NCBI GenBank assembly: GCA_009886115.1
Contig: VFJJ01000057.1
Span: 1 to 58,287, forward strand
Length of the DNA: 58,287 bases
DNA from: Actinomycetota bacterium
Lineage (GTDB): Bacteria > Actinomycetota > Acidimicrobiia > IMCC26256 > VFJJ01
Direction: 5' to 3'
Shown: positions 11,508 to 52,956 of the stretch, piece after piece
Layout: each line of letters begins with the position of its first letter
Position numbering within the stretch: position 1 is the first letter of the stretch
Notes under the pieces: generated by a model
Told to the model about the DNA's origin: nothing
Databases searched by the model: none
What the model saw: the letters and a program-made list of their open reading frames with translations, nothing else
Program-made: the position numbers and the translations under genes

Positions 11508-13865
11508 GTGGACGGCGTGGACGGCGTGGAGCGCCCCGTGGATGGTGGCGGCCGGGACGATGAGCCGACTCCTCCTGTCACTGCCAACGGCACCGTGACG
11601 AGACCTCGCCTGCGCCAACCCGGCCTCGTCGTTGCGGAGTCGGGCGTCGAGCGATACCGGGTCCCGGGAGGCGGCTCGGTCGTGGTCGCGCTGGCGGGCG
11701 ACGACGTGATCGAGATCACCGACCCCGAGGGGGGTGGACGGTGTGAGCTGCGAGCCTTGGGGCGAGACGGCACCAACGGGCTCCGGGTGATCGGCGTCCA
11801 TCGCGAAGGCTCGGCGGATGGGGTGCAGCTCTTCGGCCGGTGGTCGCCAGCGGGAGCGGCGGTTCGGTTCGTCGCCAGTGACGATGTGGCGGTCACGATC
11901 GCGTCAGCGCCGCGGGTCATGGCCGTGGACGAGCACGATCCGCCATCCGAGCTTCGGGTCAGGGTCACCAGGGCGCGACCTGGCGCGAACCTCGACACGC
12001 CGGAGCTTCCACCGCCACTCGCGCTTCCTCTCCTCCTCGACCGCCGGGTCGATCGGGCGACGGCCACGGTCTACGAGGTGGCGGCTGGCCAATGGGTGCA
12101 GATCATCGACGTCGAGGGTCGCCAGTGCTCGGACCTCCTGGCGTTCAACGCCCGCCGGCTGCACGACGGGGTCGAGCGCGGCATCGATCCGACGACAACG
12201 CGCACGCTGGTCGGCTCGCTGTATCCCGGTCCGGGCCTGTATTCCAAGTACTACGACCAGGACATGCAGCCACTGCTCGAGGTGGTACGTGACACCGTCG
12301 GCCGGCACGACACCTTCGGCCTGGCGTGCACGGCCAAGTACTACGAGGACATGGGCTATCCCGGTCACGCCAACTGCTCCGAGAACTTCAACGCCTCGCT
12401 GGCGCCCTTCGGTATCGAGCCGAGGCGAGGGTGGCCGGCGGTCAACCTCTGGTACAACACGCTGATCGGGCCAGGCAACACGATCTCGCTCGACGAGCCC
12501 TGGAGCCGTCCCGGCGATTACGTGTTGCTGCGCGCTCTCACCGATCTGGTGGTCGGATCATCGGCCTGTCCCGACGACATCGACCCCACGAACGCCTGGA
12601 ATCCCACCGATGTCCACGTGCGGGTCTACGACTCCGGCCGCACCTTCACGAAGGCGATATCGCACCGCGTGACACCCGACGCCGATCCCATCCTCACCCA
12701 GGACACCGCGTTCGCCCCGTGCTGGAGCGAGCTCACCCGGCGAGTCACCGAGTACCGGGGCTTCTGGTTGCCGACGTCGTTCTCGAGTGAAGGTGCCGTC
12801 GCCGAGTACTGGGCATGTCGCGAGCGGGCGGTGGTCATCGACCTGTCGCCGCTGCGGAAGTTCGAGGTGACCGGTCCCGACGCCGAGCCCCTGCTACAGG
12901 CCGCGCTCACCCGCGATGTCCGCAAGCTCGCCACCGGCCAGGTCGTGTACTCGGCCATGTGCACCGAGACCGGCGGCATGCTCGACGACGTCACGGTGTT
13001 CCGGCTCGGCCCCGACCTGTTCAGGGTCGTCGGCGGCGACGAGCACGACGGCGTGTGGCTGCGCGAACTCGCGGAGAAGCTGGGCTACCGGGTCTGGGTG
13101 CGCCATTCGACGAGCCAGCTGCACAACCTGGCGGTCCAGGGGCCCCTGAGTCGGGCGATCGTACGGGAGATCGTCTGGACGCCACCGGGTCAGCCTTCGG
13201 TCGACGAGCTCAGGTGGTTCCGGTTCACGATCGGGCGCATCGGAGGCTTCAACGGCCCGGCGTTGCTCGTGTCACGCACCGGATACTCGGGCGAGCTGGG
13301 CTATGAGCTGTGGTGTCACCCGAATGACGCTCGTGCGGTGTGGGACGCCGTCTGGGAGGCCGGCCGTCCCCACGGCCTGTCGCCGCTGGGCCTCGATGCG
13401 CTCGACGTGCTGAGGATCGAGGCCGGCTTGGTGTTCGCCGGGTACGAGTTCGACGACCAGGTCGACCCCTACGAGGCCGGTATCGGCTTCGCCGTGGCGC
13501 TCGACAAGGGCCGTCCGCCCGACCAGCCCGACCATCCCGGCGACGACTTCGTGGGACGCGACGCGCTCCGGCGACGCCGAGCCCAACCCCAGCGGGTGCT
13601 GGTTGGGTTGGAGCTGGCCGGGAACGAGACGGCCGGCCACGGCGACCCGGTGCACCTCGGACGACCCCGGGTGGGCGTGGTCACCAGCGGGTGTCGCTCG
13701 CCGTGGCTGGGCACGAACATCGCTCTTGCTCGGGTCGCCGTCGAGGAGGCGGCGTTGGGCACCGAGCTCGAGATCGGCAAGATCGACGGCCACCAAAAGC
13801 GCATCCCCGCCCGGGTCGTGCTCTTCCCGTTCTACGACCCCGGCAAGACCAAGCCCCGCTCGTAG
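11508..13865 (+). CDS. DUF1989 (urea carboxylase-associated) domain fused to GcvT-type aminomethyltransferase
   Basis: 785 residues from a GTG 2 bp after the upstream stop. Residues about 1-180 are of unknown type. About 185-385 match the DUF1989 family (GQWVQIIDVEGRQCSDLLAFN, FGLACTAKYYED, HANCSENFNASL). About 400-690 are a GCV_T tetrahydrofolate-binding domain (VVIDLSPLRKFEVTGPDA, VYSAMCTETGGMLDDVTVFR, RTGYSGELGYELW), and about 700-780 its C-terminal barrel (GDPVHLGRPRVGVVTSG). GcvT-type domains move a methylene unit from an amine to tetrahydrofolate. Joined to a DAO-type oxidase in the same unit, this suggests oxidative demethylation with capture of C1. Function of the DUF1989 part is not known to me. 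Confidence 0.85.
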   Translation: MDGVDGVERPVDGGGRDDEPTPPVTANGTVTRPRLRQPGLVVAESGVERYRVPGGGSVVVALAGDDVIEITDPEGGGRCELRALGRDGTNGLRVIGVHREGSADGVQLFGRWSPAGAAVRFVASDDVAVTIASAPRVMAVDEHDPPSELRVRVTRARPGANLDTPELPPPLALPLLLDRRVDRATATVYEVAAGQWVQIIDVEGRQCSDLLAFNARRLHDGVERGIDPTTTRTLVGSLYPGPGLYSKYYDQDMQPLLEVVRDTVGRHDTFGLACTAKYYEDMGYPGHANCSENFNASLAPFGIEPRRGWPAVNLWYNTLIGPGNTISLDEPWSRPGDYVLLRALTDLVVGSSACPDDIDPTNAWNPTDVHVRVYDSGRTFTKAISHRVTPDADPILTQDTAFAPCWSELTRRVTEYRGFWLPTSFSSEGAVAEYWACRERAVVIDLSPLRKFEVTGPDAEPLLQAALTRDVRKLATGQVVYSAMCTETGGMLDDVTVFRLGPDLFRVVGGDEHDGVWLRELAEKLGYRVWVRHSTSQLHNLAVQGPLSRAIVREIVWTPPGQPSVDELRWFRFTIGRIGGFNGPALLVSRTGYSGELGYELWCHPNDARAVWDAVWEAGRPHGLSPLGLDALDVLRIEAGLVFAGYEFDDQVDPYEAGIGFAVALDKGRPPDQPDHPGDDFVGRDALRRRRAQPQRVLVGLELAGNETAGHGDPVHLGRPRVGVVTSGCRSPWLGTNIALARVAVEEAALGTELEIGKIDGHQKRIPARVVLFPFYDPGKTKPRS

Positions 13866-15121: not shown

Positions 15122-16068
15122 TCATGGCGCCGGTCGGGGCTGGACGTGGCCGAAACCGAAGCGGCCCTTGATGCACAGGTTGCCGCTCGTGATGTCGTGA
15201 TCGGCCGGTGAAGTGACCTTGACGATGGTGTTGTCCTGCACGTGAAGCGTGAGGTTGCAGCCCACGCCGCAGTAGGGGCAGATCGTGTCGGTGGCGGTCT
15301 GGCGCGACGCGTCCCAAGTCCCGGCCAACCGCATGTCGAACTCGATGCTGGGCATCAGGGCGCCGGTGGGGCACACGGCGATGCAGTTCCCGCAATACAC
15401 GCAGGCCGAGTCGGGCAGGCCCAGGGCGAACTCGGTCGAGATGCGAGCGTCGAACCCCCGCCCGGCCACGCCGATGGCGAAGGTGTTCTGCCACTGCTCG
15501 CCGCACGCATCGACGCACTGGTAGCACAGAATGCACTTCGCGTAGTCGCGGACGTACAGGTCGTTGTCGACCGTGGCCGGTTGGTGGACGGTTTCCGCGA
15601 TGGCGTGATCGCCGGCGGGCGGCAGGTGATGATGACCGGCCTGGGCGGCGTCGCGTACCCCCGCATCGGAGAACGACGGTCGCCCGAACCGGCCGGGGTC
15701 GGCGCGGTACTCGTGGTTCCAACGCTCGACGTTGGCCGTGGTCGAGAGGTCGACCGACGAGCCGAGCAACTCGAGCACCATGCGGCGACTGTGCTTCACG
15801 CGATCGGACGCCGTGTGCACGACCATCCCCGGCTCCACGGTGCGCGAGCACGACGGCACCAGCACCCGCGCGCCCTCCACCTCCACCATGCACACCCGAC
15901 AGGCGTTCTTCGGCGTGATCGTGGGCCCGAAGCACAGCGTGGGTATCTCGTGCCCTTCCCGTCGGCAGGCGTCGAGGATCGTCGACCCCTCGGGAACCTT
16001 CACCGTCTCGCCGTCGACGGTGAGCTCGACCTTTCGGACGGGTGCTCGCAGGGCCACCGGTGTGCTGC

Positions 16069-16072
<4 letters not shown>
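15122..16072 (-). CDS. Formate dehydrogenase iron-sulfur subunit = detached N-terminal part of FdhA
   Basis: 316 residues from a GTG at 16072 that overlaps the upstream stop as GTGA. Residues 13-90 are a NuoG-type [2Fe-2S] ferredoxin domain (C47, C58, C61, C75). Two [4Fe-4S] motifs follow at C180/183/186/190 and C224/227/230/234. The end, CPYCGVGC...C300IKGRFGFGHVQ, is the [4Fe-4S] domain that normally begins the molybdopterin part of FdhA. In ordinary FdhA the chain continues into RLTTPL; here that sequence opens the separate gene at 19859. It should form a complex with the two other subunits and carry electrons from the Mo/W site to the NuoEF-like subunit. Confidence 0.88.
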
Positions 16073-17936
<1,864 letters not shown>

Positions 17937-17937
<1 letters not shown>

Positions 17938-19859
17938 CAGGCTCCTGCGGTCGCGAGCTTGTCGATGCGGACGGCCGAGGCCTTGAACTCGGCGGTCCCC
18001 GACTTGGGATCCCATGCCTCGATGGTGAGCTGGTTGGTGTCGACGTCGTCGGGGAAGTGCATCGTCATGAACACCAGTCCCGGGCGCAAGCCGGGATCGA
18101 TCCGGGTCGGGACCTCGAGCACGCCCCGCCGCGAGCTGACGCGGACGGTCTCGTCTGGGACCAGGCCGAGACGATGTGCGTCCTCGGGCGAGACGTCGAT
18201 CGTCTCGCCCATCCGCATGGGCGACGACATCGCACCCGACTGCACCCCGGTGTTGTACGAGTCGAGGCGTCGCCCCGTGGTGAGGCGCAGCGGGAAGTCG
18301 TCGGAGAGCTCGTCGACGGGCGAAGAGTGAGCCACGACCGAGAACGGAGCCCGGCGACCGAGCGTTGCCGGATCGTCGGACCACAGGCGCCCGTGCAGAT
18401 AGCTCGGTTCGAGCTCGGTCTCGGACGGGCACGGCCACTGGATGCCACCCAGGTCTTCCAAGCGGCGATAGCTCATCCCGGTGTGCATCGGTGACAGTGA
18501 GCGCAGCTCGTCCCAGATCGCCTCGGCCGAGTCGTACCGCCAGTCGTGACCGAGCCGCCGAGCGAGGTCGAGGATGATGTCGATGTCGTCGCGTGCTCCC
18601 TCGGGAGCGTCGATGGCCTTGCGGACCCGCTGCACGCGCCGCTCGGAGTTGGTGACCGTGCCCTCGGTCTCGCACCAGGCGGCCGAGGCCGGGAGCACGA
18701 CGTGGGCCAGCTGCGCGGTGCGGGTGAGGAAGATGTCCTGGACCACGAGGTGCTCGAGGCCCGAGAGGTGGTGGATGGCCTGCTCGACGTCGGCCTCGGA
18801 CTGGGCCGGGTTCTCGCCGATCACATAGAGGGCGGTGAGGTCGCCCCGCCCCATGGCCTCGAACATCTGGGTGAGATGCCAGCCGTACCGGGGCACGATC
18901 GTCGTGCTCCAGGCCGCGTCGAACTTCGCCCGGGCTTCGGCATCGAGGATGTCCTGGAAGCCGGGGAGGCGGTTGGGGATGGCGCCCATGTCGCCGCCGC
19001 CCTGCACGTTGTTCTGTCCCCGCAAGGGATTGAGGCCCGACCCGTACCGTCCGACGTGTCCGGTGAGCAGCGCGAGGTTGATGAGCGAGAGCACGTTGTC
19101 GACGGCGTCGTGGTGCTCGGTGATGCCGAGCGTCCAGCAGATCTGGGCCCGATCGGCCCGGGCATAGGCCTGTGCCAGCTCGCGAATCACCTCGGCCGGT
19201 ACGCCGGTGACGGCCGCGCCGCGTTCGAGCGTCCATTCCTCGACCGACGCCGCGTACTCGGCGAACCCGGTCGTGGCCCGCTCGATGAACACGCGGTTGT
19301 GCAGCCCGGCATGGATGATCTCGCGTGCCACCGTGTTCGACAGGGCGATGTCGGTGCCGACGTGCAGCCCCAACCAGCCATCGGCCCACTGGGCGCTGCT
19401 CGTGCGGCGCGGATCGATGCAGTAGAGCGAAGCGCCGGCGTTCACCGCCGTGAGCACGTGGTGGAAGAAGATGGGATGGGTCTCGCGCGCGTTCGAGCCC
19501 CAGAGGACGATCACGTCGGTGTCCTCGACCTCGCGGTATGACGAGGTGCCACCGCCTGCTCCGAAGACCGTCGCCAGACCGACGACGCTGGGAGCGTGTC
19601 AGGTGCGGTTGCAGGAGTCGATGTTGTTGGTGCCGATGGCGACCCGGACGAACTTCTGGGCGACGAAGTTCATCTCGTTGGTGGCCTTCGAGCACGAGAA
19701 GACGCCCACCGAGCTCGGACCTCGAGTGTCACGAGCGCCGCGGAACCCGGCCGCGGCACGATCGAGCGCCTCGTCCCACGACGCGGGGCGTAGCTGACCT
19801 CCATCGCGGACGAGCGGTGTGGTGAGCCGTTGGTACGGCTGAGGAGCACGGCGCGGCAC
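17937..19859 (-). CDS. fdhA: Selenocysteine-containing formate dehydrogenase catalytic subunit (in-frame UGA = Sec87)
   Basis: 640 residues if the TGA at 19601-19599 is read as selenocysteine. Start is a GTG at 19859 with AGGAGGT four bases upstream. Around the UGA the protein reads IDSCNRT-U-HAPSVVGL, the FdhF/FdhA active-site signature whose catalytic residue is Sec or Cys. Both flanks stay in frame and are strongly FdhA-like (RLTTPLVRDGG before; GRYGSGLNPLRGQNNVQGGG after; molydopterin-dinucleotide domain LRLTTGRRLDSYNTG near 465 and after). It oxidises formate to CO2 at a Mo/W-bis-MGD centre. The usual N-terminal iron-sulfur part is missing here and is encoded at 15122-16072. No selA, selB, selC or selD gene is in the window. 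Confidence 0.9.
19569..19601 (-). promoter_or_regulatory. UGA codon plus bacterial SECIS hairpin
   Basis: The recoded UGA is at 19601-19599. Eleven bases later a seven-pair stem (19587-19581 with 19575-19569: CGTCGTC with GGCGACG, one U-G pair) closes a five-base loop GGUCU. Escherichia coli fdhF has the same GGUCU loop element at the same codon distance, GGU CUG being codons 7 and 8 after UGA in both. This is the element bound by SelB. Confidence 0.85.
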
Positions 19860-19997
19860 GGGGACCTCCTGTTTCCTCTGGCGATCCGAAGTCTACTGTG
19901 ATGAAACTCGTCGGGTCAGGGCGAGCGGATGCACCAGCCGGTCCCGGACGGGCCGCCACACGGGGGCGGCAACACGGTGCGATGCGGTGCGTTGCGG

Positions 19998-51043: not shown

Positions 51044-51259
51044 CAGCGAAAGCTCAGGCATGGTCGAGCGCGGTCCCGGGTCTCCGCCACCCGGGACCGC
51101 CCGATCGGTCGCTGACCGACGATGACGGCCTCCTCCGAGACAGCGGCGCGCGAGCCGGGTCAGGCCCCTCTCGGAGCTCCGCGTTGTGGAGGTCTCTGGC
51201 GGTATCCGGGTCGACGTGATCGTCGGCCAGCGTGGTTGGGAGCGGGCACTCGATGTCAT

Positions 51260-51274
51260 TTGAGGATACTGATA
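51260..51274 (+). promoter_or_regulatory. Regulon site D (TTGAGGATACTGATA)
   Basis: Shared site 12 bases before the ATG of the ThDP enzyme gene, followed by ATATCC so that GGATA and TATCC also face each other. GATACT could act as a -10 box. Confidence 0.6.
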
Positions 51275-51285
51275 TCCTGGGCGGG

Positions 51286-52956
51286 ATGACCTCAGTCGGG
51301 CAGCGCCTCGTCGATCTCCTGGGCGCCACCGGGTCCCCGATCTTCGGAGTGCCCGGGGGCCAGACGCTGCCGCTGTACGCAGCCAGTGCCGCGTCAGGGC
51401 ACCGGCACGTGCTCGTGCGCGACGAGCGCAACGCGGCCTGCGCCGCGGACGCCTACGCCCGAGTGACGGGTCAGGTCGGGATCTGCGACGCCACGGTCGG
51501 CCCCGGTGTCACGAACCTGGTGTCGGGCCTGGCCGAGGCGTACGCATCGTCGATCCCCGTGATCGCCATCATCGCCGACATACGACGCGACACCGAGCAC
51601 CTCCGACGCCGATCGGTGGTCTCGCAGGCGCTCGATCAGCGGGCGCTGCTCGCCCCCGTCACCAAGTGGGTCGGGCAGGTGCGCGAGCCGGCCGCGCTCG
51701 ACGAGATCGTCGACCACGCGCTCCGGGTGGCCACCACCGGGCGCTGCGGTCCTGTCGCCATCGAGATTCCCGAGGACATCTTCCTCGGAGCGGCCGACCT
51801 GGCCCGGCCCCGGACGACAACCCCGTCCGATCTCGAGTACCCGAGACATCGGCCCGGGCTCTCGACGCGCGTGCTCGAAGAGGTCGCGGCCCTGGTTCGG
51901 GGCGCGTCCCGTCCGGTCGTCCTCGCCGGGGGTGGGGTTGTGCTCAGCGGCGCCGCCGCGGCACTGACCCAGTTGGCGGAGAGTCACAACCTGCCCGTCG
52001 TCACCACCCTCAACGGCAAGGGCGGTATCGACGAACGAGCGCGCCTGTCGGGCGGGGTCGTCGGTAGCTTCGGCACCGCTCGGGGCAACGTGGTCGTCCG
52101 CTCGGCCAATCTCGTGATCGCCGTCGGGACCAAGCTCGATCAGCTCACGACGCATTCGTGGCGGCTCCCCGCTCTGAGCCAAGACGTGGTGCACATCGAC
52201 ATCGACGGCGAGGAGATCGGGCGCACGATGCCCGTCCGCATAGGCGACGTCGCAGATGCCCGCTCGTTCCTCGAGCAGCTCGACACCGCACTGGTCGGGT
52301 GGTCGTCGCCCGGAGTGGCTGGCGGTTCGTGGATCGACGACATCAACCCCCACGACCAGGCCAAGAGCCCGGGCGACGGGCGGATCTCCCCGGTCGAGGT
52401 GGTCTCGGCCCTCGACGACCTGTTGGGGCCCGACGACCTCCTCGTGTGCGACGCCTCGCTGGCTTCGGGCTGGGCCGCCACCTATTTCCGGATCAAGCGT
52501 TCCGGCGTCGGGATGGTCGCACCCCGCGGCCTCGCCGGTCTCGGCTGGGCGCCCGGTGCGGCGCTGGGTGCGCGGCTGGGCCGTCCGGCGGGCAAGGTGG
52601 TCGTGCTCACGGGCGACGGAGCCTGGGGCTACGGCCTGGTCGAGGTGGAAACCGCAGCGCGACTCGGCCTCGACATCTCCTACGTCGTGCTGAACAACGC
52701 TGCGCTCGGCTGGGTGCGTCACGCCGAGGAGGCGATGTATCCCGAGTCGAGCTCGACCTTCGACGAGGTCGACTTCGCCGGTGTCGCCCGGGGCATGGGA
52801 GCGAACGCGTGGTGCGTTCACGACCCGACGACGCTGGCGACGGCGTTGGCTGATGCCCTTCGCGACCCGGGACCGTCGCTCGTCGATGTCAAGACCTCGG
52901 TCGACCCGTCACCGGTGATCCGTCTCGGGGTGGTACGCCAATCGCCATACATCTAG
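51286..52956 (+). CDS. Thiamine-diphosphate enzyme of the acetolactate synthase large-subunit family
   Basis: 556 residues from the ATG at 51286. ThDP Glu lies in VRDERNAACAADAYARVTG (about 46), the FAD-fold middle domain in PVVLAGGGVVLSGAA, and the ThDP/Mg motif in GDGAWGYGLVEVETAARLGLDISYVVLNN (about 445-473). The catalytic role could be acetolactate synthase, 2-hydroxyacyl-CoA lyase, or an oxalyl-CoA-decarboxylase-like lyase; no regulatory subunit gene adjoins it, which argues against valine biosynthesis. It heads a run of acyl-CoA dehydrogenase genes, so C-C cleavage during side-chain catabolism is more likely. Confidence 0.85.
   Translation: MTSVGQRLVDLLGATGSPIFGVPGGQTLPLYAASAASGHRHVLVRDERNAACAADAYARVTGQVGICDATVGPGVTNLVSGLAEAYASSIPVIAIIADIRRDTEHLRRRSVVSQALDQRALLAPVTKWVGQVREPAALDEIVDHALRVATTGRCGPVAIEIPEDIFLGAADLARPRTTTPSDLEYPRHRPGLSTRVLEEVAALVRGASRPVVLAGGGVVLSGAAAALTQLAESHNLPVVTTLNGKGGIDERARLSGGVVGSFGTARGNVVVRSANLVIAVGTKLDQLTTHSWRLPALSQDVVHIDIDGEEIGRTMPVRIGDVADARSFLEQLDTALVGWSSPGVAGGSWIDDINPHDQAKSPGDGRISPVEVVSALDDLLGPDDLLVCDASLASGWAATYFRIKRSGVGMVAPRGLAGLGWAPGAALGARLGRPAGKVVVLTGDGAWGYGLVEVETAARLGLDISYVVLNNAALGWVRHAEEAMYPESSSTFDEVDFAGVARGMGANAWCVHDPTTLATALADALRDPGPSLVDVKTSVDPSPVIRLGVVRQSPYI

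Follow-up and report, generated by a model that had tools for sequence, protein, structure and literature searches.

Does the TGA that interrupts a formate dehydrogenase gene in this actinobacterial DNA end the gene, or does it specify an amino acid? In the window, by which we mean the whole 58,287-nucleotide stretch that was analysed, a minus-strand frame opens with GTG at 19859, runs for 86 codons to a TGA, and then continues to an ordinary stop at 17939-17937. The evidence supports a real selenium-containing actinobacterial formate dehydrogenase, in which UGA is read as selenocysteine (Sec) by way of the usual bacterial signal and machinery. More fully, we propose, with a probability of roughly 0.95, that three genes (Table 1) encode a cytoplasmic formate dehydrogenase, probably NAD+-reducing, with Sec inserted at the UGA through a SECIS element and SelB.

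Translation of the TGA as a residue yields a single protein, with Sec as residue 87, that carries the Mo-bisMGD domains of formate dehydrogenase alpha subunits. Its alignment to solved formate dehydrogenases extends from residue 10 to the end of the protein (E = 4.5e-142 against FdhF of HDCR and 2.9e-132 against FdhH of Escherichia coli), and the TGA aligns with their active-site Sec/Cys. The preliminary description had placed the codon at exactly this site, with homology in the same frame on both sides, and its coordinates and its claim of continuity are borne out by this nearly full-length alignment. It had also anticipated that customary annotation would split the gene, as indeed it would: gene callers would close one ORF at codon 86 and open another at 19514, where the longest ordinary ORF past the TGA (525 aa) begins. 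A corrected annotation recovers 115 N-terminal residues, along with the active-site residue, that would otherwise be lost. A 1208-aa ORF spanning 16069-19695 was rejected as a gene; the fdhA homology lies in another frame, and only the last part of this ORF corresponds to fdhBC.

Table 1. Features of the formate dehydrogenase locus (window coordinates)
Feature	Position	Strand	Description and evidence
fdhA, catalytic part	17937..19859	-	640 aa, predicted Sec at residue 87; PF00384 and PF01568, TIGR01591, PDB matches
UGA codon, predicted to be read as selenocysteine	19599..19601	-	TGA conserved in homologues; Sec/Cys site by alignment
Ribosome-binding site AGGAGGT	19864..19870	-	4 nt 5' of the GTG start; sequence
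Bacterial SECIS hairpin, by sequence comparison	19569..19587	-	GGUCU loop at 19580-19576, six conserved pairs; covariation, codon constraint, loop loss in Cys relatives
fdhBC, fused NuoE-like and NuoF-like diaphorase subunit	16069..17937	-	622 aa; PF01257, PF01512, PF10531, PF10589
fdhN, N-terminal part of FdhA	15122..16072	-	316 aa, GTG start; PF13510, PF12838, PF04879; TIGR01591 positions 1-49

A point missed in the preliminary description is that fdhA encodes the catalytic part only. The protein starts at a point equivalent to residue 62 of the solved FdhF, and an upstream extension is precluded because an in-frame stop (19895-19893) precedes the start codon. The Fe4S4 domain, absent from the 640-aa protein, is encoded two genes downstream, past the NuoE-NuoF fusion, in an ORF (fdhN) whose domains comprise a [2Fe-2S] domain, a [4Fe-4S] ferredoxin domain and the molybdopterin Fe4S4 domain; the first two also stand ahead of the Fe4S4 domain in FdhA of the NAD type. 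The genes are tightly coupled, the start of fdhBC overlapping the stop of fdhA, and the GTG start of fdhN overlapping the stop of fdhBC. Scored singly against TIGR01591, the catalytic chain (644.3 bits, positions 52-672 of 672) and the N-terminal part (50.4 bits) both fall below the curated cut-off of 666.25 bits; when joined, they reach 703.9 bits over positions 1-672 and pass it. The gene order A-BC-N recurs in 63 of the best 80 public loci, those without it mostly ending too soon, and in all five same-order contigs of sufficient length. In loci L096 and L135 there was room for the N-terminal part, and none was present within 6 kb. Formate dehydrogenases of the Cys type from the same order (L031/L069, L032) have the N-terminal part directly in front, which is the usual arrangement. 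Four loci (L078, L084, L129, L143) carry an additional 2-4 kb between fdhA and fdhBC. It is conceivable, although we offer this tentatively and think it somewhat doubtful, that the window enzyme represents a class of Sec formate dehydrogenases, widespread and spanning phyla, in which the molybdopterin Fe4S4 domain, carried on the catalytic chain of solved relatives, comes in trans from a separate polypeptide, an architecture that may have gone unrecognised as a class.

In the assembled enzyme, Sec would serve as a ligand of a Mo (or W) bis-MGD centre, at which formate would be oxidized; electrons would then pass to the Fe4S4 and ferredoxin-type clusters on the separate polypeptide encoded by the third gene, and from there through the NuoE-NuoF fusion (2Fe-2S, FMN, 4Fe-4S) to NAD+. 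The domain set and this predicted path, including NuoE/NuoF diaphorase partners and NuoG-like ferredoxin domains, are those of Fds-type NAD formate dehydrogenases with a fused alpha subunit (PDB 6tg9, 7e5z, 9wxb). In the latter, however, a single chain of about 960-990 aa makes up the alpha subunit, whereas here it is divided between two genes with the N-terminal half last, a split conserved in relatives, and the window operon encodes NuoE and NuoF as one fused partner, unlike the Fds type. The alternative that survives best accepts the enzyme but supposes an acceptor other than NAD+ (NADP+, for example), or supposes that the two parts of FdhA are not joined in a single catalytic unit. Profiles cannot distinguish acceptor specificity, and the split is known here from sequence, but the NuoF-type FMN/NADH domain, the exact complementarity of the two parts on one FdhA profile and the conservation of the operon render this alternative improbable.

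Immediately downstream of the UGA lies a hairpin, which comparison among homologues identifies as a bacterial SECIS. A ribosome arriving at codon 87 of fdhA would there encounter SelB, bound to the GGUCU hairpin and carrying Sec-tRNA(UCA), and selenocysteine would be inserted. The loop sequence GGTCT begins 18 nt past the TGA, precisely as in E. coli fdhF (NC_000913), in which Sec occupies the same active-site position; the equal spacing claimed in the preliminary description is thus confirmed, with the stem register differing by one base. The same description proposed a stem of seven pairs, of which the hairpin, its GGUCU loop and six conserved pairs stand, but the seventh, outermost pair does not, being unpaired in 42 of 81 distinct sequences. 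Among these 81, the loop reads GGTCT in 79 and GGGCT in two (Rokuibacteriota), and 78 contain the loop and all six stem pairs. At columns 18 and 30, each a third codon position, a C-G pair (59 sequences) alternates with G-C (22 sequences) and is broken in none; pair 20-28 occurs as U-G, C-G or U-A and is likewise unbroken throughout. Paired cells amount to 92.2%, a level reached by none of 500 shuffles (84.3%), and the covariation score of the hairpin exceeds that of every shuffle and every slide. Constraint at the codon level is concordant, with codons 91-96 ranking first of 284 windows along the gene in synonymous constraint, and Gly94 encoded by GGT in 85 of 88 sequences while the remaining Gly codons are mixed. 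Single-sequence folding gives an unremarkable energy (z from -1.15 to 0.27), so the structure rests on sequence comparison. Rfam returned no match in the window at gathering thresholds, which is no argument against a bacterial SECIS. Variant elements were observed in two Rokuibacteriota homologues (L137:3846-3896, L148:6244-6294), which keep the TGA and six stem pairs around a GGGCU loop, and in an acidobacterial homologue (L132:6223-6273), which keeps the TGA and GGUCU with only four of six stem pairs.

The decoding machinery lies outside the window, and its complete absence from the genome had been named beforehand as grounds for abandoning the Sec reading. A search of the window's own genome, a draft of 224 contigs estimated at 95.6% completeness and 3% contamination, refutes such absence, with all four components found: selA at 458.7 bits; selB at 320.5 bits, its product bearing the SelB winged-helix domain; tRNA-Sec at 66.2 bits, with the anticodon UCA; and selD, a Cys form, at 398.4 bits. 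The selA and selB genes are adjacent on contig C73, which also carries tRNA-Sec; selD lies on C57, fdhD on C179 and the window itself on C80. No other close formate dehydrogenase was found in this genome, where the next match is 30% identical to the window protein. More broadly, a selA match was found in each of the 34 TGA genomes sampled from the phylum; in one same-order TGA genome (G055, 79% complete) the selA search gave no match. Many genomes of the order have selA with no close fdhA homologue, so the order probably has further selenoproteins. That UGA might be decoded by other means, through near-cognate suppression or a reassigned code, drew no support from this analysis and is very unlikely, given a complete Sec machinery and a covarying SECIS immediately 3' of the UGA. 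The TGA triplets at 17939-17937 and 16071-16069, moreover, end conserved domains in the manner of ordinary stops.

Conservation of the codon across independent assemblies addresses whether the TGA is simply a misread Cys codon, the error that the preliminary description proposed to look for in close homologues. Homologues at 60% identity or more occur in nine of 58 same-order genomes, the window's own included, and all nine have, instead of a Cys codon, a single internal TGA at the same position. The TGA is likewise present in all of the best 80 public homologous loci, labelled as Actinomycetota, Acidobacteriota, Chloroflexota, Rokuibacteriota, Eremiobacterota and others. Of 396 genomes sampled from the phylum, 39 besides the window's own contained a homologue of at least 64% identity: 34 with an internal TGA, four with Cys, and one in which the match begins past the site. 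One of the 34 (G375) has additional stops, perhaps as a result of decay or mis-assembly. Plasmid records gave matches to fdhA only below 60% identity. Two bins titled Bifidobacterium breve (L089, L094) contain an fdhA that groups with Acidimicrobiia and are probably mislabelled.

Cys versions do occur among relatives (L164, L168, L170, L173 and a second copy in L085), and these are instructive in their own right. Four actinobacterial genomes, all from a single genus (family code f48), have TGC or TGT at the Sec site, the GGTCT loop is replaced in every case by GGACT or GGGCT, and none keeps all six stem pairs; a convincing selA was found in one of the four and not in the other three. A quick tree places Cys forms inside the Sec clade, next to Actinoallomurus iriomotensis (L085), which carries selA and has tandem fdhA copies (L085:3981-5873 and L085:6001-7884), one with TGA and one with TGC. 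Its Sec copy has an intact GGUCU hairpin, its Cys copy has the loop GGCCT, and both precede one fdhBC and one fdhN. This tandem looks like an intermediate in the replacement of Sec by Cys. The nesting fits a Sec-to-Cys conversion, as already described for FdhA (PMC1794560), although this direction is likely rather than proven, because the tree is a quick one and the outgroup branches are long. The group offers a clean natural experiment, in which one enzyme exists in Sec and Cys versions, and the SECIS decays and selA disappears in the Cys lineage.

The existence of such Cys relatives is what lends some plausibility to a sequencing or assembly error of TGC or TGT in an ordinary Cys enzyme. Nevertheless, the same-codon TGA recurs in 95 of 102 compared sequences from many assemblies, and the GGUCU hairpin is kept where TGA is present and its loop lost where Cys is present; with independent homologues bearing both the TGA and a conserved SECIS, this explanation is in practice refuted. 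A pseudogene broken by a genuine stop, as the split gene call might suggest, is equally negligible for a frame that contains no other stop or frameshift, shows high GC at third codon positions, is strongly conserved across the family and is followed by intact overlapping genes.

A Sec formate dehydrogenase of this type is already known, and the window provides one more well-supported case, with its alpha subunit in two genes. Among bacterial selenoproteins, FdhA is the most widespread (PMC5029168), and Sec formate dehydrogenase in actinobacteria has also been described from Corynebacterium aurimucosum (PMC2830990). The E. coli enzyme FdhF differs in being a single polypeptide that itself contains an Fe4S4 domain and that lacks a NuoEF partner. 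The closest counterpart is FDH3 (FdhA3-FdhB3-FdhC3) of Actinomycetospora chiangmaiensis DSM 45062; the published account (PMC7176365) gives subunits of 640, 614 and 316 aa, where those of the window have 640, 622 and 316 aa, a likeness drawn from subunit size and description, with Sec predicted in FdhA. By the same account, this is, like the window enzyme, a cytoplasmic Sec formate dehydrogenase in an organism with sel machinery, albeit a different one; FDH3 was found in the proteome, and formate accumulated without added selenite and not with it. With the present loci, the users of Sec gain a group of mostly uncultured actinobacteria, together with other bacteria of soil and water.

The pathway in A. 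chiangmaiensis prompted a search for a formyl-CoA-producing lyase, and the candidate considered, a TPP enzyme at 51232-52956, was rejected, scoring as acetolactate-synthase-like and below every cut-off. Near the fdh operon, the window encodes a trimethylamine N-oxide demethylase (11508-13865, plus strand; NF053776, 1134.8 bits against a cut-off of 1100). This enzyme could be a source of C1 units, and oxidation of formate derived from methylated amines is plausible.
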